In this document: positions 8,627-20,810 of the stretch, one piece after another
Layout: each line of letters begins with the position of its first letter
Position numbering within the stretch: position 1 is the first letter of the stretch
Origin: Lichina pygmaea
Taxonomy: Eukaryota > Ascomycota > Lichinomycetes > Lichinales > Lichinaceae
Assembly: GCA_963422465.1 (NCBI GenBank)
Contig: OY730172.1
Span: 1,550,001 to 1,614,000 of the forward strand
DNA length: 64,000 nt
Reading direction: 5' to 3'
Made by a program: the position numbers and the translations under genes
The notes under the pieces: model-generated
The model's input: the letters and a program-made list of their open reading frames with translations, nothing else
Databases searched by the model: none
What the model was told of the DNA's origin: nothing

Positions 8627-8750
8627 TGTTACGACCCATGGGATGGGAGCCACTCATTTATAGGCAATCAGGCCGCGGGCCAGGCAAGAGGACACCATGG
8701 AAGTCAAGTGACCAACCAACAAGGGGTCACGTGACTGTCGAGACACACGG

Positions 8751-8918
8751 GAGTCTCGACGCAGGATGCATGAAGTATCAAGACAATCTCACCAGTCTCG
8801 ACGCAGGATACATAAAGCATCAAGACAATCTCACCAGTCTCGACGCAGGATGCATGAAGCATCAAGACAATCTCACCAGTCTCGACGCAGGGTGCATAAC
8901 ATGGTGGGACTGTCGAGA
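8751..8918 (+). repeat. 42-bp tandem repeat inside the LTR
   Basis: Four units starting at 8751, 8793, 8835 and 8877, each carrying GTCTCGACGCAGG and CAAGACAATCTCAC-like segments; the last unit is diverged. The same array is in the 3' LTR. It lies just upstream of the TATA box, where an enhancer would be expected, but that role is inference. Confidence 0.8.
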
Positions 8919-8982
8919 CAATCTCACCCATCTTGACGTCGAGACTGTCAAGACAATCAAGATTGTCTCGACAGGCCAGCAC

Positions 8983-9028
8983 TATATAGTCCGACGATAG
9001 TTCCCCTATGGAACGATCATCTTCAACT
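8983..9028 (+). promoter_or_regulatory. Putative LTR core promoter and transcript 5' end
   Basis: TATATA at 8983-8988, conserved in both LTRs. About 35 bp downstream lies ATCTTCAAC (GTCTTCAAC in the 3' LTR), which is complementary to the segment just after the 5' LTR and could be the RNA 5' end used for self-priming. Confidence 0.5.
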
Positions 9029-9228
9029 CATGTTATGATCCAGACAACTAGATCTACTTCAATACAATCCTTTTGTATGAAGCCATTGATCAGGTGTCAC
9101 CACCACCACATTCCACCAAACCCCTTCACACTCCTTGACACTCCTCTCCTGCGAGAACCAACCCGCCTTCCACATCTCGCCCTTAATCCTATACTCGGTT
9201 AGGACAGCACGGTACGGACCGCAACACT

Positions 9229-9236
9229 TTGAAGAC
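9229..9236 (+). other. Putative prim binding site, self-priming type
   Basis: Directly after the LTR (2-nt spacer) lies TTGAAGAC, which does not start with TGG and so does not look like a tRNA 3'-end complement. It is the exact complement of GTCTTCAA just downstream of the LTR TATA box in the 3' LTR (7 of 8 in the 5' LTR). This is the arrangement known for Tf1/sushi-type elements, which prime from their own RNA 5' end. Confidence 0.45.
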
Positions 9237-9244
9237 CCTCAAGG

Positions 9245-10744
9245 ATGAGTACCTCAGGAGCAACCAACCCCAACTTCCCAGATAGAAAGATTAGTGTCGC
9301 CAAGCCAGACCTGTTCTACGGTGAAAGAAACAAGGTCGATGACTGGCTCATGCAACTCCAAGTCTACTTTCAATTCCAACCAGAGACGAAGCTGCCTAAG
9401 GAAAAGTGGCCCCTCTTTGCAACCACTTACATGAGAGGTAATGCTTATCGATGGATCAAGCCTTACGTCAACAAACATCTCTCAGGAAACAGAGACCACG
9501 ACAGCACGTCGGAATGGATGACAAAATAGACGTGATTCAAGGACAAGATCAAAAGAATCCTTGGACTATCTAACGAAGACAAAGTGGCTATACGAATAAT
9601 CCAGCACATCAAACAACAACGCTCAGCCGCAGAGTACACCACGCAGTTCAAACAATACTCAGTACTGACTGATTAGGACGACAACACCCTAATAGTCATG
9701 TACTGACGTGGACTCAAGGAAAACGTGAAGGATAAAATCACCTTTGACGGACGAGCGGTCAACACACTGGACGAGCTCATCGCACAAGCAATCAACATCG
9801 ATGACAAACTATTCGAGCAAGCGATGGAGAAACACCACAACAGAGGATACAGCCACCCCGCATGGCATGTGAGCAATCACTACAAGCCGCCTAACAAGGC
9901 ACCACCACATGACCCATATGGCTATGCACCCATGGAACTGGATGCAGTCCACCACAAGGGAAGGTTCACGAAGGGAAGGAACAACAAAAAGGGGAAAGCA
10001 CTGAAGTGCTATGCCTGTGGCAAGCTAGACCACATGGCGAGAGACTGTTGTTCAAAGAATAAGGTGCACCGACAGCAACTTAATACGCTTGACAGAGACT
10101 GGAACATCATCAAGCCAGAGGACCCACCAGGAGAGGCTCAGCTATCCCTCGAACAATAGGACAACTACAATCAGACATTGGAAGCAGCCCACCAACTGGC
10201 AACATCAGGAGGCAAGGACCTACCAGAACAGACAGGTCAGGACAAGGGACAGGAGCCCTTAACCACCTCTGATAGGGACCAAGACAAACCCACGTCTATC
10301 AAAGAAGAAATACCACGAGGAAGCTATGCTTACAGCATGGACCCACGAAATCTACAGCACAGCGAACTACAGTGGAGGTTTTGCACGAAGCACTACTGCA
10401 CCTACCACAAACAACTACGAAGGTACGGAGGACATTCACCCTACCGCGCCACCTGCCACAAACATTGGGTCAATTGCAAGAAGGATACGTGTGAGATCCA
10501 TCTCTGGGACAAACGCCAACACACCGTATTCCCCAGGCACACACATGATTGGCACGAACACCTCATGTTCCTACAGCAAGGCAACAACCACAACTGCTAC
10601 GTCAACAATTGGCAGTACTGCCTCAAGCCTGGATGTGACAAGCATCAGCAAGACAAATTCATGAACAGATTCCTCAGAACTGATAGGAATGGCTGGACCT
10701 ATTGCCCAGTCAGTGAAAAAACACTTCAATCAGGAAAAGACTGA
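9245..10744 (+). pseudogene. gag of the chromovirus, interrupted, with zinc knuckle and Cys/His module
   Basis: Structural protein gene starting at the ATG at 9245. One frame runs through stops at 9527-9529 and a few more up to about 9710 before the downstream half becomes open. The C-terminal part has a retroviral CCHC knuckle (CYACGKLDHMARDC; C-x2-C-x4-H-x4-C). After it, in the same frame, is a further region with three W-x2-C-x4-C-x2-H motifs (10373-10408, 10466-10501 and 10610-10645). The gag frame ends at 10744 and pol lies in the -1 frame. Most stops can be explained by single transitions at TGG, CAG or CGA codons. Confidence 0.88.
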
Positions 10745-10782
10745 ACTCCCTTGTCAAGGGGTGACATCGGGAGCTCAACAAC

Positions 10783-13700
10783 ATGACCCCTAGCAACGCA
10801 AAGCACCTGCGATTACCTGTGTCACTACACGCCAACACGCCAGTACAGACATACGCACTTGTTGACTCTGGAGCCAGTGGAAACTACATTTCAAGACAAC
10901 TTTACAACACCCTCGGCACTGGAAGAAGACGCAAGCAGCAGCCCTATCAGCTCGCGATGGCAAATGGACAGACAGAGCTAGTCTGCCATGAGACGCAGCC
11001 AATAGAAATAGTTACCGGACACCATGCTGAAAGGATCCACCTTGATATCGTTGAGTTGGCCACTCAGGATATCTATTTGAGGATGCCTTGGCTAAAGAAG
11101 CACAACCCAGTTGTTAACTGGAGGACAGGAGTACTCATGTTTAGGAACTGCACTAACAACACAGCTCGGACCTGTTACCAGCTGCAGAAGGCGTGGACAG
11201 ATGAGGGAAGGAGTCCTCAGTGGAACCTCACTGACAGAAAGGACAACTCTCAAGAGAAGAGGTCTGCCTTGACAGGCACACCCCGGAACCAGGTGGCCAA
11301 ACAGTCAGAGATGAAGAGAGAGGAAGTTGTTAACCCTCTGGAGATCCCTGAAGAGTACTGACCTGGGTATGATAACCTCTTTCAGGAAGAGACAACAACA
11401 GTAGTGTTGCCTAAGCACCAACCTTGGGATCATGAGATCAAGTTGCAACCAGGGATAGAGCCAGGATTTGGACTAATTTACCAGTTATCAGAGAAAAAGC
11501 TCCAAGTACTTTGCGAGTACCTGGAGGAAAACCTGAAAAAGAGTTTCATTCAAGAATCTCAATCGCCAGCAGGATACCTGATACTATTTGCACCAAAGAA
11601 AGATGGAAGTCTTCGACTTTGTGTAGATTACAGAAAACTCAACAACATTACTATCAAAAACTGATATCTGTTGCCAGATGCGAACGAATTGCGAGACAGG
11701 ATCAGCCAAGCTACAATCTTTACCAAGCTGGACTTGAAAGGAGTATACAACCTGATATGCATGAAAGAAGGAGAAGAATGGAAGACAGCCTTCAGAACCT
11801 GATACAGACACTACGAGTATCTGGTCATGCTATTCAGACTCACAAATACACCAGCAACATGTCAAGCCTTGATCAACAATGTCATCAGAGCATACCTGGA
11901 CTAAACAGCTATCACCTACCTAGACAACATTCTTGTCTACTCGAACACACAACAGGAACATACCAAACATGTGAAGGATGTTCTACGATGCCTACAAGAG
12001 GCAGGGCTCAAGCTCAACCTGAAGAAGTGTGAGTTCAACAAACCAGAAGTTGAATTCCTCAGATACATCATAGGAATTGAAGGGATCAAGATTGACCCTG
12101 AGAAAATCAAAGTGATTCAACAATGGCCAACACCGACATCAGTTAAGAAAGTACAAGCCTTCCTAGGATTTGCCAACTTCAACTGATAGTTTATCAAGAA
12201 CTACTCACAGACGGCAACACCACTGACAGAACTCACAAAGAAGGACGTGGAGTACTGGTGGACAGAGAGATAACAAAAAGTATTCCAGCAGCTCAAGGAC
12301 ACTTGCGCCAAGGAACCAGTTCTCCTCAACTTCAAGACAGGCCAACCGACATGAATCAAGATGGACGCTTCAGATCAGGCAGTGGGAGCATGCTTATGCC
12401 AACAGGCAGACGACAAGTGGCACCCAGTTGCCTACTACTCACGAAAAATGACACAAGCAGAACAAAACTATGATATCCACGACAAAGAGCTACTGGCAGT
12501 TGTCAATGCACTTGAACACTGGAGAGTGTATGCGGAAAGCAGTTCCGAACTCACTGTTCTCACAGACCACAAGAATCTGACAATGTTCACGACAACCAAG
12601 AAGCTGAACAGACGACAAGTCAGATAGGCTGAACTCCTAGGGCAACACAAGTTTAAGATCTTGTACACCCCCGGACAAGACAACAGGAGAGCAGACGCAC
12701 TAAGCTGATGAAAAGACTACATAGAAGATGATGAACACCAAGGAACAATCTTATAGTAGGACCAGTAAGGGAACCTGGTGCCTTGACCACAGATCAACAA
12801 GCTCACGGCAGAAGATACTGAGGAATTAATAAAGAACTACCACGACAATCCAGCACATGGTCACCCAGGAATCTCCAAGACCACAGACCTTATCCAACAG
12901 GCAGGGAATAATGTCATCAACCTCTGACAACATGTCACAAGCTACATCAGCAAATATCTACTATGCCAGAAAAACAAACACGGAAGACACAAGCCATATA
13001 GAGAAGGACACCCAAACACAATACCAAGAGGCCTGTGGGAAGACATGTCAATGGACTTTATCATGAAGCTACCCAAGTCCAAAGACCCAGTCACAGGAAT
13101 CACCTACAACTTGATTATAGTGATAGTGGACAGATTCACAAAATATCTAATAGTGGTACTATTCAAGGAAACCCACACAGCAGAGCAGTTGGGACACCTC
13201 CTACTGGACAGATTGGTCAGGGACCACAGAGTTCCAATCATGGTCATTACTGACAGAGACAAACTCTTTCACATCCAACTACTGGAAGACAATCAGTGCA
13301 GCCATGGGAACAAAACCCAAAATGTCTACGGCCTATCACCCACGAACTGACAGCCAGACGGAGTGAGCAAACCAAGTCCTGGAGACTTATTTGCAGTATT
13401 ACATCAACCAGACCCACAGTAATTAGGTACAATTATTACCAGTGGCACAGCTGGCAATCAACCAGCACAGATCAGACTCAAGAAAGGAATCGCCATTCTT
13501 TGCCAATTTTGGGTGACACGCAAACATCAGAATACCAAGCAGAGCTTCACCAAACACAGAGAAAGCACTCCAACATGACAAGCTCCTACGACAAACACAC
13601 ACGATGATGAGGTATTACCTTCAAGAGACCTCAGAAAAGATGCAACACCAAATAGACAAAAAATTGAAAATGGCACCTCAGCTGAAGAAGGGGGATAAAG

Positions 13701-14113
13701 TCTACCTCCTCACAAAAAATTGGAAAGTCAAGAAACCAAGAACAAAGAAACTGGACTATGTCAAGGTCAGACTATTTTCAGTTGAAGAAAGAACTGGACC
13801 AGTCAACGTCAGACTGTGACTACCGAGAGACGCTCGGGTACACCCAAACTTTCACATCTCAATGATTGAATTAGCCGACCAGAGCACACCCTTGCAGGAA
13901 ACATTTTATTACCAACCAGAGGAAGAACAGGAATTCAAAGTCGAACAGATCTTGAAGAGAAAAGGTCAGTGATACCTTGTCAAGTGGAAAAACTACCCAG
14001 ACTCGGAAAATACCTGGGAACCACTCAGGAACCTCGCGAACTGCCAGCTCCTTCTGCAGCAGTTCCGGCAGCAGCAGAACCGAACAGCTTGGCCTGCAGC
14101 GCGGACGTGTTAA
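10783..14113 (+). pseudogene. pol of the chromovirus: protease, RT, RNase H, integrase, chromodomain
   Basis: Protease motif DSGASGNYIS near 10865; RT with [10 protein letters not shown] near 11620 and YLDN at the position of the catalytic YxDD; RNase H with [10 protein letters not shown] near 12363 and TDHKN; integrase with zinc-binding and core segments; chromodomain with [17 protein letters not shown] near 13973-14030. The frame is cut by at least a dozen stops. A one-base shift near 13266-13269 (an extra T) moves the rest of the integrase and the chromodomain into the next frame. The coding frame ends at TAA 14111-14113. Inactive. Confidence 0.9.
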
Positions 14114-14525
14114 TAACCATCACTGACAAGTCTTCACCATCCGCCTCCATCTCAGCAACAAGGCACTGGAGCTTCTTCTTTGCTCGACCCTCAGCACCTT
14201 CAAGAACCTTTCACTTTCAGGACACACAAGCCTGCAGCTCGGCAAGCTACTCAACAAGAGTATCCCGCTTGGCCTCATCAACAGCCAAATCCTCGCGAAG
14301 GTTATCTCAGGTCATGTTCAGCGACTCCCAAGAAAGTGACACACAGGACTTCCCACAACAAGTGCATTCAGCGCACTTCAACTTATTGTTGTTGTCAGAC
14401 ATTCGGAAGCAGGGCTTGTGGTTCAAAACACAGAAGTCACACGGAGCAAGCGACACAAAGTTATGATCACAGATCTGGGCTGCCAGTTGTTTTCGGTAAG
14501 CAGAGGTACGTGATTTTGCAGACAT
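14025..14525 (-). pseudogene. Antisense Cys-rich plus coiled-coil ORF in the chromovirus 3' region
   Basis: On the strand opposite to gag-pol, one frame from ATG 14525-14523 to TGA 14027-14025 spans 166 codons with four in-frame stops. The first part is rich in cysteines (CDFC, CAECTCCGKSC), followed by a Glu/Leu/Lys-rich stretch typical of a coiled coil (DNLREDLAVDEAKRDTL, then LAELQA). The composition stays protein-like across all four stops, which are one-transition changes (TGA from CGA, TAG from CAG or TGG). It overlaps the last 89 nt of pol. From memory, fungal Ty3-type elements often carry an antisense Cys-rich coiled-coil ORF here; function unknown. Confidence 0.65.
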
Positions 14526-14569
14526 ACTCAAGAATTCATCAGGACGATGAATGAAGGAGAGGAGGGTAG

Positions 14570-15169
14570 TGTTACGACCCATGGGATGGGAGCCACTTAT
14601 TTATAGGTAATCAGGCCGCGGGCCAGGCAAGAGGACACCATGGAAGTCAAGTGACCAACCAACAAGAGGTCACGTGACTGTCGAGACACACGGGAGTCTC
14701 GACGTCGCATACATGAAGTATCGAGACAATCTCACCAGTCTCGACGCAGGATACATGAAGCATCAAGACAATCTCACCAGTCTTGACGCAGGATGCATGA
14801 AGCATCGAGACAATCTCACCAGTCTCGACGCAGGGTGCATAACATAGTGGGACTGTCAAGACAATCTCACCCGTCTCGATGTCAAGACTGTCAAGACAAT
14901 CTTGATTGTCTTGACAGGCCAGCACTATATAGTCCGACGATAGTTCCCCTATGGAACGATCGTCTTCAACTCATGTTGTGATCCAGACAACTAGATCTAC
15001 TTCAATACAATCCTTTTGTACGAAGCCATTGATCAGGTGTCACCACCACCACATTCCACCAAACCCCTTCGCGCTCCTTGACACTCCTCTTCTGCGAGAA
15101 CCAACCCGCCTTCCGTATCTCGCCCTTAATCCTATACTCGGTTAGGACGGCACGGTACGGACCGCAACA
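14570..15169 (+). repeat. 3' LTR
   Basis: 600 bp, TGTTACG...CGCAACA, followed by the AACAT target duplication (15170-15174). It shows C-to-T changes in CpA context relative to the 5' LTR (for example CTCAT to CTTAT near its start), plus many CpG-type transitions on either copy. Confidence 0.95.
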
Positions 15170-15174
15170 AACAT

Positions 15175-15833
15175 CTGCAAGGAGAAGAACAGCACAATAG
15201 CGCTGCTGCTCTGGGGACTTGCTGGCAAGAAGCTGGATGTTGTCGCAGTACAAGAGCCCTGGCAGAACCCCCACTGGCAAACTTTGTATAACCCGCCAGG
15301 GAGCTGTTTTTATCTAGCTTTCACCCCCACAGAGTGCACCCATGTCTGCTTCTATGTCAATAAGGCTATACACCCAGACAGCTGGGAGATCAATAGAGCA
15401 GGCAATCCTGACATTGTGACACTGGCAATCTGAACCATATGCAGAAGTCAGCTGGCCCTGATCCACATCCACAATGTCTATAGCCTCTTGCCATGACACT
15501 GAACCACTCTGGAGACACCAGTTATTGACAAGTTGACAGCAAGGCTCTGGGCAGCCCCCAGTGTCCACCATGTTATAGCCAGAGACTTCAATCTACACCA
15601 TCCAAGCTGGGGAGGCCAGCAGTACCTCACACAACATATGGTGGTGGACAGCCTACTTGACACAGCTGCTGCCACCAGCCTGCAACTTGCCCTCCCTCTG
15701 GGTATGATCACTTGGCAGGCCAGGAACCTGGAGAGCACAATCAACCTTATGTTTGTATCAGTGGCACTCACCCCCCAGATCATGGCCTGTGGGGTGGTGG
15801 AGCACCTAGAGCAGTCATCAGACCACTGCCGGC
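15175..15833 (+). pseudogene. Tad-like LINE endonuclease (APE-type) fragment
   Basis: Continuation of the LINE ORF2 interrupted by the chromovirus. The translation gives the endonuclease motifs LDVVAVQEPW (about 15234-15263), a DFNLHHPSWGG block (15579-15611) and a terminal SSDHC (about 15816-15830), which are three landmarks of APE-type LINE endonucleases. Stops break the frame near 15432 and 15497. The usual DF(N)xHH motif is present, but the preceding Gly is Arg (ARDFN). The sequence switches abruptly to a minus-strand LTR element at about 15833, so the RT domain is missing here. Confidence 0.8.
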
Positions 15834-16437
15834 ATCTCATGAAGATTTTGGTGATGTCTTCTGCACCCATCCCTGCACAAGGCTCACAAATAACACTCTT
15901 GCTTAGGCAGTCAGTAAACACCAGCATGTTGCTGTAGCCCATCAAATTTGGCAGGTCAGTGATGAAGTCCATCAACAATTCTTGCCGCAAGTGGTTGGGG
16001 ACTGGGAGAGGTTTTAAGAATCCCTGCTGACAGGTTTGCCAGAGCTTGTTCCTCTTGCAGGCAGTGCAATCCAGCACAAATCATTCGATGTCGGCGTCCA
16101 TATTGGGCCAGAAGTAATCTTGCCAAAGGATTGCAGCAGTCCTGTCTTGACCTGGGTGCCCTGTGAGTGGTGAGTTGTGAGCTAGTTGGATTAATCAAGT
16201 CCTCAAGGGCTCACTGTCAGGGACCCAGGTATGTCCTCTGAATAGAACCTGTTCCTCTTCTTGGATCTCACATTCTCCAATGGAGACTTTGAGTCTTAAC
16301 TTGGGGGGAGACATCCTTCTTCCTTCTGTGATTGCCTGCTGAATTCTCTGCAACACAGGATCCTTCTCACGCCATTCTGCCCAAAGCGACTTGATGGCAG
16401 GCATGTCTTGTTCTTCTTCTACATTAGCGGGTGTGGC
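15834..16437 (-). pseudogene. Truncated integrase segment of the second LTR element
   Basis: Lies in the pol reading direction after a TGA that ends the RT-RNase H frame at 16438. It shows a linker (DPVLQRIQQ), an integrase zinc-binding domain with His and Cys ligands (HRAP..., CTACKRNK) and the beginning of the core (LLMDFITDLP, carrying the first catalytic Asp). Small frame interruptions lie near 16195 and 16080. The sequence breaks off at about 15834. Confidence 0.75.
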
Positions 16438-17876
16438 TCAAAGCAATTCAGAGGAGGGCTTAGGGCAGAAGACACCTGGGGCGCACATTCCTGGCTTCAG
16501 AAGCTGGCAATCACAAGCTAGCAGCCGGTCGTCAAGTCTGTTTGGGAGGTCTTGGGGGTGGTGTGACAGCAGGTCAGGAATGGTGTTTGACTTGCCCGGG
16601 GTGTACAAGATCTTGAAGTCGTATTTGGAGAGGGTCTTGGCCCAGCGCATCTGTTGTTTGGTGAGCTTCCTTGTTGACATGAAGTACTTTAGATTCCGGT
16701 GGTCTGTAACAATCCTGAACTCCTTCACACTTCGTAGCTCAGTGTCCCACTTGTCCAACACCTTGATGATGGTGAGCATCTCTTTGTTGTAGATCTCGTA
16801 ATTGCACTCAGCAGGCAGGTGGCGTTTGGACATGTACGCAATCAGCCGTAGGACGCTGTCAATGACCTGTTGTAGTACTGCTCCTGAGCACCAGCCAGAG
16901 GTGTCACGCGCCAAAACAGTTTCGCGATCTGCGTCGAATTGCCCTAGCACTGGGGCCATCACAAAGGCTCTCTTCAACAAGTGGAAGGCCTTGTCAGATT
17001 CGGGGGTCCATTGGAACACTGCGTCCTTTTTGGTCAGACCAGTTAGGGGGGCTGCGATCTTGGAGAAGTCTTTAATAAAGTGTCGGTAGAAGTTCGCGAA
17101 ACCAAGGAAGGCTTGGACTGCTCGTACAGAGGTAGGAGCTTCCCAGGCCTGCAATGCAGAGATCTTCTCTGGGTCCATTCGTAAACCTTTTCCTGCTTCC
17201 AGAATAAAGCCCAGGTACTTCGTAGACTGTGCATGGAACTCGCACTTATCAATGTCAATCTGCAGGCCGGCTTCTTGTAGCTGTTGCAGGACTCTCTTGA
17301 CTTGTTCCTTGTGCTCCCCCAGTGTCCCGTCAGTGTAAATCAGGATGTTGTCAATGTAAGCGGAGCAGAAGTCATCCAGGAAGTCCTTCAGAGCGTGATT
17401 GATGTACTTCTGGAAGGTGCTGGGGGTGTTGGCTAGTCCAAACAGAGTAACCAGCCATTCGTAGAGTCCGTAGCGTGTGTGGAACACCATCTTCCATTCA
17501 TCTCCCTCTGCTATCCGGATCTTGTGGAACACTGCGATGACGTCGAGTTTGGTGAAGTACTTGGCTTTGCTGACGGAATTGAGAGTCTCTTGGATCAACG
17601 GCAACGGGTAACAATCCTTCCTTGTGATCTTATTCAGCCCACGGTAGTCCACGCAGAATCGTAGTCCACCTCCTGGCTTGCGCACAAAGAGCACTGGAGC
17701 AGCCGCAGGTGACTGGCTCACACGGATAAACCCTTTGTCCAATAACCCATTGAGGGTGTTACGCAACACCAGAAGCTTGTCCTTCGACATGGTGTAGAGG
17801 GGCCCCCAAGGCACCTCCGGAGCTGTTCCGTCTGCCTTTGGCTCTAGCTCGACTGCATGATCCTGGCTGGCTCGGT

Positions 17877-17908
<32 letters not shown>

Positions 17909-18816
17909 AGGCGTTCTGCAGCGGCGTGGTCAAAGACGTCGAGCCATTGGTGGTAGTCTTCCGGGAGCTTCTCCTTAGGGTCTGAACGTATCTTTGTCTT
18001 CAACGCCTTCTTGATGTCTCTCATGCTCGCGGCAAAGACTTGGGCCTTCTTGTGCCTGCAAGCCAGCTTGAATGCAGCTGCATTGACCATGACGCAGTCC
18101 AATTGCAGCTCTCTTGGGGCTTCTTGTTCCAGGTTAGCTACTGTCGTTCCTGAGTGGTGGATCAACATCTTGTCCTTTGCGTGATTGAAATGCACATCTT
18201 GCTGACGGATCCAGGGGCGTCCTAAGATCATATCCCATTCGTTAAGCTTAGCCACAAAGAAGAAAACATGTGGCTGTACGTGGCCTTTGATCCGCATGGC
18301 TCCGTAAGCCACTTCGCTGATTGTTCCTTGCTGGGGGTCTCCTTCGAACGTGGATATACGGATTGGGCGGGTCCGTAGCCGCTTCAAGTTGCATTTGGTG
18401 GCGTATGCAGGGTCAATGATTCCGTAGGAGCTGCAGCCACAATCTACCATTGCTCGCCCGGGGGTGAAGTTCTGAATGCGCAGAGGAGAGAGTTCAATAG
18501 GGGTGTGGAACAACGTGCCATTCATCGGGAAGTTATTAAGCTCCTCCCTAATCTTGCTGACTTGTTCCACCACCTTCTTGACCACTTCCTCAGATCCTTG
18601 GACGCGACTCTGCCCAAGGATCACCCATTTTTTGACTCCGACTCCATCTCTGCAGTCTCTACCTCTGCATCCTCGGGGACTCGAGCCTCTGTCACGGCAA
18701 CCTGTGGACGGCGGGTGGGGAGCAGCACACATTGGCTGACAAAGTGCTGCTTCGACCCGCACCGTACGCATAAGCCCTTGGCTCTCCGTTCTGAGAGCAC
18801 GTCGGGGGTCACCCAT
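16438..18816 (-). CDS. pol: protease, reverse transcriptase, RNase H (second LTR element)
   Basis: Open for 792 codons, though the real product most likely enters this frame by -1 frameshifting at 18627-18633 rather than at the ATG at 18816. Protease region with VDCGCSSYGIID; RT with RFCVDYRGLNKIT, TKLDVI and SAYIDN (Asn where the second catalytic Asp of YxDD is usual); RNase H with LTKKD and TDHRNLKYFM. A Pro run is encoded by a 31-nt G/C homopolymer (17877-17907), so its length is doubtful. It ends at a TGA before the integrase, so the protein is truncated compared with a full Ty3 pol. Probably inactive for integration, but the RT domain is uninterrupted. Confidence 0.88.
18593..18633 (-). 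other. Putative programmed -1 ribosomal frameshift signal (gag-pol)
   Basis: Read on the minus strand: heptamer A AAA AAT (18633-18627) in the gag frame, a 4-nt spacer GGGT, then a perfect 9-bp stem GATCCTTGG / CCAAGGATC (18622-18614 and 18601-18593) closing a 12-nt loop. The gag stop TGA (18623-18621) lies two codons after the heptamer, and slipping back one base opens the pol frame. All parts of an eukaryotic -1 site are present. Confidence 0.7.
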
Positions 18817-19898
18817 TTAGCTCGGAGCTTTCCCGCCGATGTGTCCATGGGGCCTGAGTGTGTACCGGTAGCTGTTGAGGTGGCTGGGGAGCTGGCAGGG
18901 TGGCTGGGAGCCGCACGGGAGGGTGTTCCAGCCGTGCCCGCCGTGCGGGCCAGTGGCAGGACCATCCGGGAACGTTGGCGATATTGTTCTGCTCGTTGGC
19001 GGTTATCCAGTGACTGGCACAGGCGTACCAGTTCGTCCATTGTTGCTGGCTTGGTAGCCTGGTACGAGAGAGCCGTCCCTAGCTCTTGCGAGAGCTGCAG
19101 CCGCAGCATGTGCAGCAGGGAGCTCTCGTCGTACCCCGTCTTGGGCGCATGCCGCATAAACTCCGCGTAGTGCTCCGCGAAAGTCTTCTTGCCTTGACTG
19201 AGCTTTGCCAGCTTTGTCCGAGCCGTGTTCGCTCGATCCGGATCTCCAAAGGCGTTGTCCAGAATCCTGAACATGGATCTGAACGCCGAGTCGCCTGGGT
19301 GTTCGTTGGCAAGTCTCAGAGCTCTGGCGTAGCTCTCCTCTGCGAACGGCTCCAATTGGGCCTGTGCGGCTCCTCCAACCCGCGAGAAAACGTAGCGGAG
19401 CTGAGCTAACGCATCAGGGTAACGAATCCCCTCCTGCCTAATCTTATCAGCCATCTTAATCTTCCAAACGTCCAGAGAGATCTCATCTGTCCGTGCGTCT
19501 CCTGTGAAAATAGGAGGATTCGGGAGCTTTGCCGGCTTGGGGGAGCTGGCTCGCTGGGTGGTGGTGGCGGTGGCTAGCTGGGTCGGCTCCTGCAAGGGAG
19601 TAGCGGGGGCTGGGGTCGCAGGCGTCAAGGAGCCAGGTGAGAGCAGCTGGTTCCGGAGAGTGTCTCGTTCCAGCTTGAAGGCATCACGTTCTGCCTTGTA
19701 GTAGCCGGCTTGCCCCATTGCTTCTTGGTACTGCTGCTGGAGTGTAACAAGTTGCTTGTTGATGAAGCCTAGCTCAGCCTGCGAGGATTGGAGCCGTGCC
19801 TCCACATCCCTGCCCAAGGCCACCTTCTCGTCCCGGTCCTGCTGGGTAAGTTCCAGCTCATCCATAACACGCTGCAGCTCGTCTTGCAGCGCGGTCAT
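18621..19898 (-). CDS. gag of the second LTR element
   Basis: A 425-codon intact frame. The N-terminal 80 residues form a Glu/Leu/Gln-rich coiled coil. A Pro/Thr-rich linker follows, then a retrotransposon gag domain (SLDVWKIKMADKIRQE onward) and a CCHC knuckle (CVRCGSKQHFVSQC) near residue 375. It ends at TGA 18621-18623, immediately after the slippery heptamer. The start is the first ATG after an in-frame TAG upstream. It overlaps pol by 196 nt in the -1 relation. Unlike the neighbouring chromovirus, no stops interrupt it. Confidence 0.9.
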   Translation of the reverse strand: MTALQDELQRVMDELELTQQDRDEKVALGRDVEARLQSSQAELGFINKQLVTLQQQYQEAMGQAGYYKAERDAFKLERDTLRNQLLSPGSLTPATPAPATPLQEPTQLATATTTQRASSPKPAKLPNPPIFTGDARTDEISLDVWKIKMADKIRQEGIRYPDALAQLRYVFSRVGGAAQAQLEPFAEESYARALRLANEHPGDSAFRSMFRILDNAFGDPDRANTARTKLAKLSQGKKTFAEHYAEFMRHAPKTGYDESSLLHMLRLQLSQELGTALSYQATKPATMDELVRLCQSLDNRQRAEQYRQRSRMVLPLARTAGTAGTPSRAAPSHPASSPATSTATGTHSGPMDTSAGKLRAKWVTPDVLSERRAKGLCVRCGSKQHFVSQCVLLPTRRPQVAVTEARVPEDAEVETAEMESESKNG

Positions 19899-19952
19899 GC
19901 GATCCTCTGCGTTGGCGCCTTCCGTTCTCTTGATCTGTCTGTTCTGTCGATA

Positions 19953-20165
19953 GGGCTATCCAGCCAAACGCTCGGGTCCTTGACTCGAGCCCGTGTACAC
20001 AGCAGCTATCCAGCGGAGTGTGTCCGTCCGTTCCGTCAGTTCTGTTCCGTTGGTGAGGCTATCCAGCCAAGCGCTCGGGTCCTTGACTCGAGCCTGTGTG
20101 CGCGGCAGCTATCCAGCTAAGCGCGTCCGTTCTGTTCCGTCAGTAGGCTGTCCAGCCGAGGGAGA
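19953..20165 (-). repeat. Direct repeats in the 5' leader of the second LTR element
   Basis: A segment beginning GGCTATCCAGCCAA at 19954 recurs 103 bp later at 20057, including GCTCGGGTCCTTGACTCGAGCC, and a shorter third copy begins near 20146. It lies just upstream of gag in the element's orientation. Confidence 0.75.
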
Positions 20166-20319
20166 GCTTTACCTAATGTCAAGGGCTAGACGTCGATGAC
20201 GATCAATAGATTCCTATTGTACAAGAAGGTAAAGCTACAGAAAGAAAGTGCAACACAGGCAGGTAAAACATGGAAGGCGACACGAAGTCAGCTGACTCGT
20301 CGCGTGGTCACGTGGCTGG

Positions 20320-20800
20320 GAGGTGCTCGTGGTCTGCCCTGTGACAATTGGACTGGCAGCATTCCTCTGCAAGCAACAGGTACCTGGCTTCCCCACACCA
20401 GCATGCAGCTGTGGAGTGCTGTGGGAGACAGCCGAACACATGGTTCTAGACTGCTCACACCTTCTCTGAGTGTGGTGAAGCCTGTATCTAGCAGCTGCCA
20501 CCACTGACTACCAGGCTTGGTTTGACATCCTGACCACAGCCCACCACCACCCTCACAGTGTGGATCCTCTGACAAGGCATTCTCCCCCAGTTCTCCTGGG
20601 CTCAGGAGCAGCTGGAAGCTGGCTGCTAGCCAGCCACCCCCCATGTTCTACAACATCTTGACAGGATAGTGCTGGCCAGGCACTGCAGAAGGAGGTTTTT
20701 CACACTAGCAGGCCTAGAGTTTTCCTTGCTTAATTTTCATAGCTGACCCAGCATAGTCTAGATAACTAGCACTAGAATGGAGTAGGAATACCAATTACCA
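20320..20800 (+). mobile_element. LINE 3'-terminal fragment (plus strand)
   Basis: The translation gives the C-terminal end of a Tad-like ORF2 (LAAFLCKQQVPGF, then ACSCG, and FSWAQEQLEAG in another frame) and a 3' UTR with GACCCAGCATA and CTAGAATGGAGTAGGAAT, ending in a short (CCAATTA)-type tail. It is similar to the minus-strand copy at 22085-22937. Stops and shifts make it inactive. Confidence 0.75.
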
Positions 20801-20810
20801 ATTACCCCCC

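Follow-up and report, generated by a model that had tools for sequence, protein, structure and literature searches.

Tf1/sushi elements beyond fission yeast predominantly employ programmed −1 frameshifting, according to the portions of PMC10085805 considered here, in which grasshopper is listed as a −1 user and Fig. 4 compares MAGGY, REAL, grasshopper, Cgret, skippy, Tcn1, marY1 and others. In the available passages of PMC3441728, three Gypsy families of Verticillium have pol in the −1 frame. In these families, VdLTRE2, VdLTRE3 and VdLTRE4 of V. dahliae, gag and pol overlap, and PR, RT, RNase H, integrase and a chromodomain are described; the same passages name neither a heptamer nor a hairpin. 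A 2003 survey of gag-pol recoding is reviewed in PMC5009743 (cited from an excerpt). The spacer between a slip site and its downstream structure is typically 6–9 nt long (PMC3835772, in excerpt). Outside the retrotransposons, GGAAAAC has been put forward as the shift heptamer in several dsRNA viruses, mostly fungal, and in the putative Fusagravirus-type sites it stands directly before the UAG of ORF1 (PMC4881467, in excerpt).

The window examined here is a 64,000-nt stretch of the genome of the ascomycete Lichina pygmaea. On its minus strand a gag frame ends with TCA AAA AAT GGG TGA, and we read this site with good confidence, on comparative sequence grounds, as the gag-pol −1 recoding site of a retrotransposon of the Tf1/sushi (chromovirus) type of Ty3 elements. 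The features of the site and of the element are as follows.

18627 to 18633, minus strand: slippery heptamer A AAA AAT in the gag phase, read from the sequence (A AAA AAC in the copies L002, L005 and L008)
18623 to 18626, minus strand: spacer GGGT, 4 nt, whose final base doubles as the first base of the gag TGA
18621 to 18623, minus strand: TGA stop codon of gag
18614 to 18622, minus strand: 5' arm of the hairpin, GATCCTTGG (sequence, RNA fold and alignment)
18602 to 18613, minus strand: loop of the hairpin, 12 nt, or 8 nt given two inner pairs
18593 to 18601, minus strand: 3' arm of the hairpin, CCAAGGATC (sequence, RNA fold and alignment)
18621 to 19898, minus strand: gag open reading frame, 425 aa, with a Retrotrans_gag match below the Pfam cut-off and a CCHC knuckle
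16438 to 18816, minus strand: pol open frame at −1, 792 aa (Pfam)
15835 to 16437, minus strand: remainder of pol, interrupted by stops, where the integrase region begins (from the alignment with a complete relative)
20177 to 20346, minus strand: 5' LTR, TGTCA...TGACA, about 170 nt, its upstream edge supported by a second analysis
20165 to 20174, minus strand: primer-binding site AGGTAAAGCT, complementary to LTR positions 111–120 (20236–20227)

The pol frame matches reverse transcriptase and RNase H above the Pfam cut-off and protease just below it, which gives the order PR (sub-cut-off), RT, RH, and the alignment to the complete relative runs to residue 925 of that protein, a position that we take, from its motifs, to lie inside integrase. 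The 10-nt complement between the primer-binding site and the LTR, a hallmark of self-priming, is present in the window and in three smaller elements described below (L006, L008 and L009). Since self-priming is a common feature of Tf1/sushi chromoviruses in the portions of PMC10085805 considered, this complement places the element, as judged from its sequence, among these Ty3 elements. The Gag knuckle reads CVRCGSKQHFVSQC under the CCHC definition given in the same source. With the Tf1/sushi chromoviruses described there the element shares pol at −1, the self-priming complement, the CCHC motif of Gag and a chromodomain in its relatives, and its LTR ends, TGTCA and TGACA, are as in the fission yeast elements; it differs in being a separate family, which is set beside these references by description. 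The comparison with VdLTRE2, VdLTRE3 and VdLTRE4, which share with the window element the overlap of gag and pol and the −1 position of pol, and which belong to a type with PR, RT, RNase H, integrase and chromodomain, is likewise one of descriptions (PMC3441728, in part). The window copy is truncated before the chromodomain, which is listed for relatives such as P0022 and was found in P0013, where it is fused to Gag.

The copy in the window is dead, since its pol frame is closed by a stop at 16438, others lie beyond, and similarity to the complete relative ends at 15835. It is a truncated relic, unable to make a full Gag-Pol, and no further minus-strand pieces of the element were found in the window with the complete relative and a Gag-chromodomain relative as queries. 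Within the open pol frame, positions 17877–17907 are a run of 31 C that encodes prolines and looks like a simple-repeat expansion. The gag leader contains a tandem repeat (19938–20130) of two 90-nt copies that are 84% alike and lie 103 nt apart. Other repeats adjoin both ends of the element, one at 15312–15826, apparently LINE-like, and one of 460 nt at 20347–20806 with more than 30 matches in the genome. A second Ty3 element occupies 8627–14869 of the plus strand between 300-nt direct repeats that are 96% identical, with protease, RT and integrase-like pieces at 10783–14023.

A preliminary description of this DNA had reported a −1 frameshift signal at the gag/pol junction and called it notable for a fungal Ty3 element. 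Its structural particulars were borne out: the gag-phase heptamer A AAA AAT ahead of the gag TGA and, 4 nt past it, the perfect 9-bp stem with its 12-nt loop lie where they had been reported, and the pol frame, said to stay open for more than 700 codons at −1, is open for 731 codons counted from the slip site. The gag and pol frames overlap by 196 nt. The spacer was correctly called short; it is nominally 4 nt against the usual 6–9 nt (PMC3835772, in excerpt), and opening the two outer pairs of the stem makes it 6 nt. In an RNA model of the junction the stem is extended to 11 bp and the loop reduced to 8 nt. As a −1 signal the site has good support from its position, its phase and its recurrence in four Ty3 families of this genome; the hairpin part is less firm. 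The claim of notability was not sustained, as −1 is already usual in the class, and the published −1 use in Tf1/sushi elements and in Verticillium Gypsy families (PMC10085805 and PMC3441728, both in part) makes the window signal the expected one. We conclude from the comparisons below that the signal is real, that the once-active family very likely made use of it, and that it is ordinary for its kind.

The placement of the heptamer at the end of gag is unlikely to be due to chance. A AAA AAT is the sole canonical in-phase heptamer in the whole gag reading frame, and in 5000 codon shuffles a canonical heptamer fell within the last seven gag codons in 0.14% of cases and anywhere in gag in 18%. 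Counted over both strands, the window has about 128,000 positions, of which 62 are starts of a perfect 9-bp stem with a loop of 3–15 nt, so that about 0.005 such stems are expected in ten start positions.

Twelve DNA matches to the junction region were found in the element's own genome. Five of them, including the window, cover the heptamer together with the hairpin, the match in L008 breaks off three bases past the heptamer, and the other six end sooner or are fragments. L002 and L005 read A AAA AAC AGG TGA at the junction and L003 reads A AAA AAA AGA TGA, and the −1 phase is common to all three. L008 carries A AAA AAC in the gag phase and parts from the window sequence after a further three bases. 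That relatives might lack the heptamer had been named as evidence against a signal; among the six copies of the family read at this place, such a loss is seen in one, the decayed L004, in which the A run is gone; the other five keep the run. The differences of L002 to L005 from the window are mainly transitions (328 versus 36 in L002), mostly C to T or G to A relative to the window base. Decay of this type leaves A runs intact, so the persistence of the run in the copies is no more than a weak sign of selection. AAC is probably the form from which the AAT of the window derives.

A commoner sister family is 46% identical to the window family in Pol over 694 aligned residues. It was sampled as the 29 best loci after the window (57 scored of 1157 candidates) together with L053 and L054. 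Pol is at −1 in 29 of 29 loci, and in most copies gag ends with GAG TCG GAA AAC AAG TAG. Of the 31 junctions, 29 carry G GAA AAC as the heptamer, one A GAA AAC and one A GAA AAT; G GAA AAC occupies the place homologous to the window heptamer and does not strictly follow X XXY YYZ. GGAAAAC is also the heptamer of visna-maedi virus. The sister heptamer resembles the Fusagravirus-type sites in lying near a stop (PMC4881467, in excerpt); those belong to unrelated dsRNA viruses, so the likeness is one of working at most and implies no kinship.

Immediately past the slip site the window and sister families have similar pol residues (V-x-L-G-x-x-R-x-Q-G), and this bears on how pol is entered. Pol could have a separate start reached by termination and re-initiation at an overlapping GTGA, or could be joined to gag by an unrecognised intron. 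A pol-frame GTG does overlap the TGA in the window and L003 has ATGA, but an ATG is absent from that place in the other four junction copies and in the sister family, which has GTAGTC, and the residues common to both families begin right behind the slip site. We regard this alternative as quite improbable and a −1 slip at the heptamer as the better account.

Twelve further stretches were taken. Two were sister copies and the other ten, a non-random set chosen for long open frames from 150 listed matches, fall into two more families, C and D. Family C ends gag with TCA AAA AAC TAG in 4 of 4 stretches. In 6 of 6 family D stretches, G GGA AAA (three) or A GGA AAA (three) is followed by GAC TGA. 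The slip sites of both families are in phase, and the frame heading to the RNase H match is at −1 to gag. Several D stretches have stops inside gag, and in L049 a stop lies just ahead of the heptamer. In the family C copy L043 (762–822), A AAA AAC is followed by a 6-nt spacer and a predicted H-type pseudoknot with stems of 8 bp and 8 bp, the score of which was reached by 0 of 60 shuffles; as modelled, this signal appears cleaner than that of the window. The scan found no pseudoknot in the D copy L046, and a candidate pseudoknot in family D comes from a reading by eye only.

The four families together allowed two other origins of the frame offset to be weighed. The first is that the ancestor had gag and pol in one frame and that the offset reflects a decay indel in the A run or a sequencing error. 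The window copy is decayed elsewhere, A runs are prone to length change, and a single-frame relative, P0152, exists. The same −1 phase, however, is shared by all 29 sister loci, by the ten C and D stretches and by L002, L003 and L005, and a run of six A is absent from two of the four families. The shared phase has largely refuted this explanation, and we consider it exceedingly improbable. The second is that pol is expressed from mRNA edited by polymerase slippage on the A run, not by ribosomal slippage. It is in keeping with the six A of the window family and of family C, but in the sister family (GGAAAAC) as in family D (GGGAAAAG or AGGAAAAG) the run at this place is only four A long and the offset is unchanged, and the explanation is in our judgement very improbable. 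Slippage of the ribosome at the heptamer remains our preferred reading.

The contribution of the hairpin was examined separately. In the 65 nt past the heptamer the window fold has a z of −1.55, and 15 of 200 shuffles folded equally well. For the sister copies L014 and L015, 42 of 200 and 23 of 200 shuffles were as good. The best fold of L005 lacks the hairpin, and 195 of 200 shuffles matched it. A pseudoknot was also sought, with base shuffles and one copy per family. The score of the window element was matched by 5 of 60 base shuffles, and the best score of the sister copy L015 was equalled in 1 of 60, which leaves a pseudoknot unsupported in the window and weakly supported in the sister family; the window element is more simply explained by a hairpin alone. 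An Rfam scan of window positions 18300–18900 returned a single sub-threshold match, which we took as chance.

The sister stem has the same position and loop length as that of the window family, and lacks the outermost pair. In each of the four other junction copies of the window family the stem contains an A-C mismatch; the same mismatch occurs in 4 of 31 sister junctions and a pairing G in the other 27 of 31. Given the transition bias of the decay and this predominance of G, the mismatch in L002 to L005 is probably a product of decay.

The stem was aligned in 20 rows, consisting of the window and 19 distinct rows from 35 junctions. Because the rows are akin, the counts of shuffles given here are not probabilities. 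The paired cells amount to 88.3% versus 84.6% in shuffles, with 0 of 500 shuffles reaching the observed value; five cells are changed on both sides, a number attained in 8 of 500 shuffles; and the covariation score of 0.128 is attained in 1 of 500. When the partners were slid by −1 the score was 0.138, slightly above that of the true register. A single stem pair is changed on both sides (G-C in 14 rows, A-U in 5 and G-U in 1), and five stem pairs are invariant. As many pairs with a change on both sides (one) occur in 463 of 500 shuffles, and as many further pair types (four) in 461 of 500. We read these alignments as showing a single compensatory change within what is probably a hairpin, short of proof. 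The covariation looked for in relatives was found in part: a like stem, the same loop length and one pair changed on both sides are present, and the shuffle and slide controls are mixed. The stem is also pol coding sequence. Third-position conservation, tried as proof of an RNA constraint, was seen in 8 of 11 codons, a level that at least 15 of 603 pol windows reach, and is indecisive.

It is therefore conceivable that the heptamer slips and that the hairpin reflects nothing but coding constraint in pol, or that another structure is the stimulator, which would be compatible with the slip site itself. The fold energies are weak, the best fold of L005 does without the hairpin, the covariation controls are mixed, conserved pol residues lie at the stem, and family C has a clear H-type pseudoknot. 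Set against these are the identical stem place and loop length in two families 46% identical in Pol, the rarity of a perfect 9-bp stem by chance, the pairing level above all 500 shuffles, and a number of two-sided cells above all but 8 of them. On balance we consider a by-product somewhat unlikely, and a stimulatory hairpin is kept in the model below.

We propose that ribosomes translating gag would arrive at A AAA AAT (A AAA AAC in three other copies of the family) and be slowed by the downstream hairpin, and that the P- and A-site tRNAs could then slip back by one base; both the stimulation and the slippage, with its rate, are presumed. A minority of ribosomes would go on in the pol frame to make Gag-Pol, and the remainder would stop at the TGA one sense codon further on to yield Gag. 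More tentatively, heptamer and stimulator may evolve as separable modules, with one tRNA pool and ribosome serving at least four −1 signals, a proposal that we place a little short of even. If it is true, the two sister families share a hairpin and differ in the heptamer (A AAA AAC versus G GAA AAC), family C has an H-type pseudoknot behind A AAA AAC, and family D combines G GGA AAA with some other structure. Four families in one genome would offer a natural test set of heptamers (AAAAAAC, GGAAAAC and GGGAAAA) against stimulators (hairpin and pseudoknot), one that bears on Gag:Gag-Pol ratios in a filamentous fungus, and the site provides a case examined by comparison in a class for which most entries state just that pol is in −1. 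Among the titles and abstract openings covered we recognised no published account of the hairpin or heptamer of the window family.

Relatives in other genomes were compared at the protein level only, and tblastn confirmed none among the viral contigs and prokaryote genome contigs searched. Six of 19 Gag homologues (P0001–P0003, P0005, P0007 and P0013) are the window Gag itself or agree in length and reading with open frames of L006 to L009. Among the 13 unseen in the element's own genome, the last residues are (K/E)N or (K/E)Nx in seven, which is what a slip site encoding the end of Gag would give, the ends counted being protein ends that may reflect a stop or a contig end; P0019 ends otherwise. 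Of the remaining homologues, P0010, P0011, P0012 and P0014 are cut short and P0015 looks chimeric. The Pol relatives comprise the best 120 of 1947 and the best 120 of 3596 matches, or 161 distinct proteins. Four of the 161 listed exceed 1400 aa; three of these start inside pol and one, P0152, is a one-frame Gag-Pol, a count that leans on the second search because the first was confined to proteins of at most about 1280 aa. Gag and pol in one frame, which the preliminary description had held would speak against the signal, was thus seen, among the 161 Pol relatives listed, only in this more distant protein.

The same genome contains four LTR elements of about 2 kb, L006 to L009, with room for little beyond a Gag joined to a chromodomain. 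They lie as follows.

L006, 12 to 2112: Gag-chromodomain element
L007, 152 to 2089, minus strand: Gag-chromodomain element
L008, 61 to 2196: Gag-chromodomain element
L009, 114 to 2200: Gag-chromodomain element

In the titles and abstract openings covered and in the passages of PMC3441728, we recognised no published Gag-chromodomain fusion of such a kind. The chromodomain is above the Pfam cut-off in the L008 reading frame (P0013) only and weak in L009. At least two join points are present, one ahead of the slip site (L006, L007 and L009) and one just past A AAA AAC (L008). Intact elements of this design would have no need of a frameshift, and they were possibly mobilised in trans. All four are broken: L006 runs out of the frame of the chromodomain, that frame is interrupted by a stop in L007 and in L009, and gag contains a stop in L008. 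Their LTR pairs, over 172–176 aligned nt, are 95–99% identical within each element. The 5-bp flanks of L006 (ACCTG) and L008 (TGGAC) match in the manner of a target duplication, and those of L007 and L009 mismatch.
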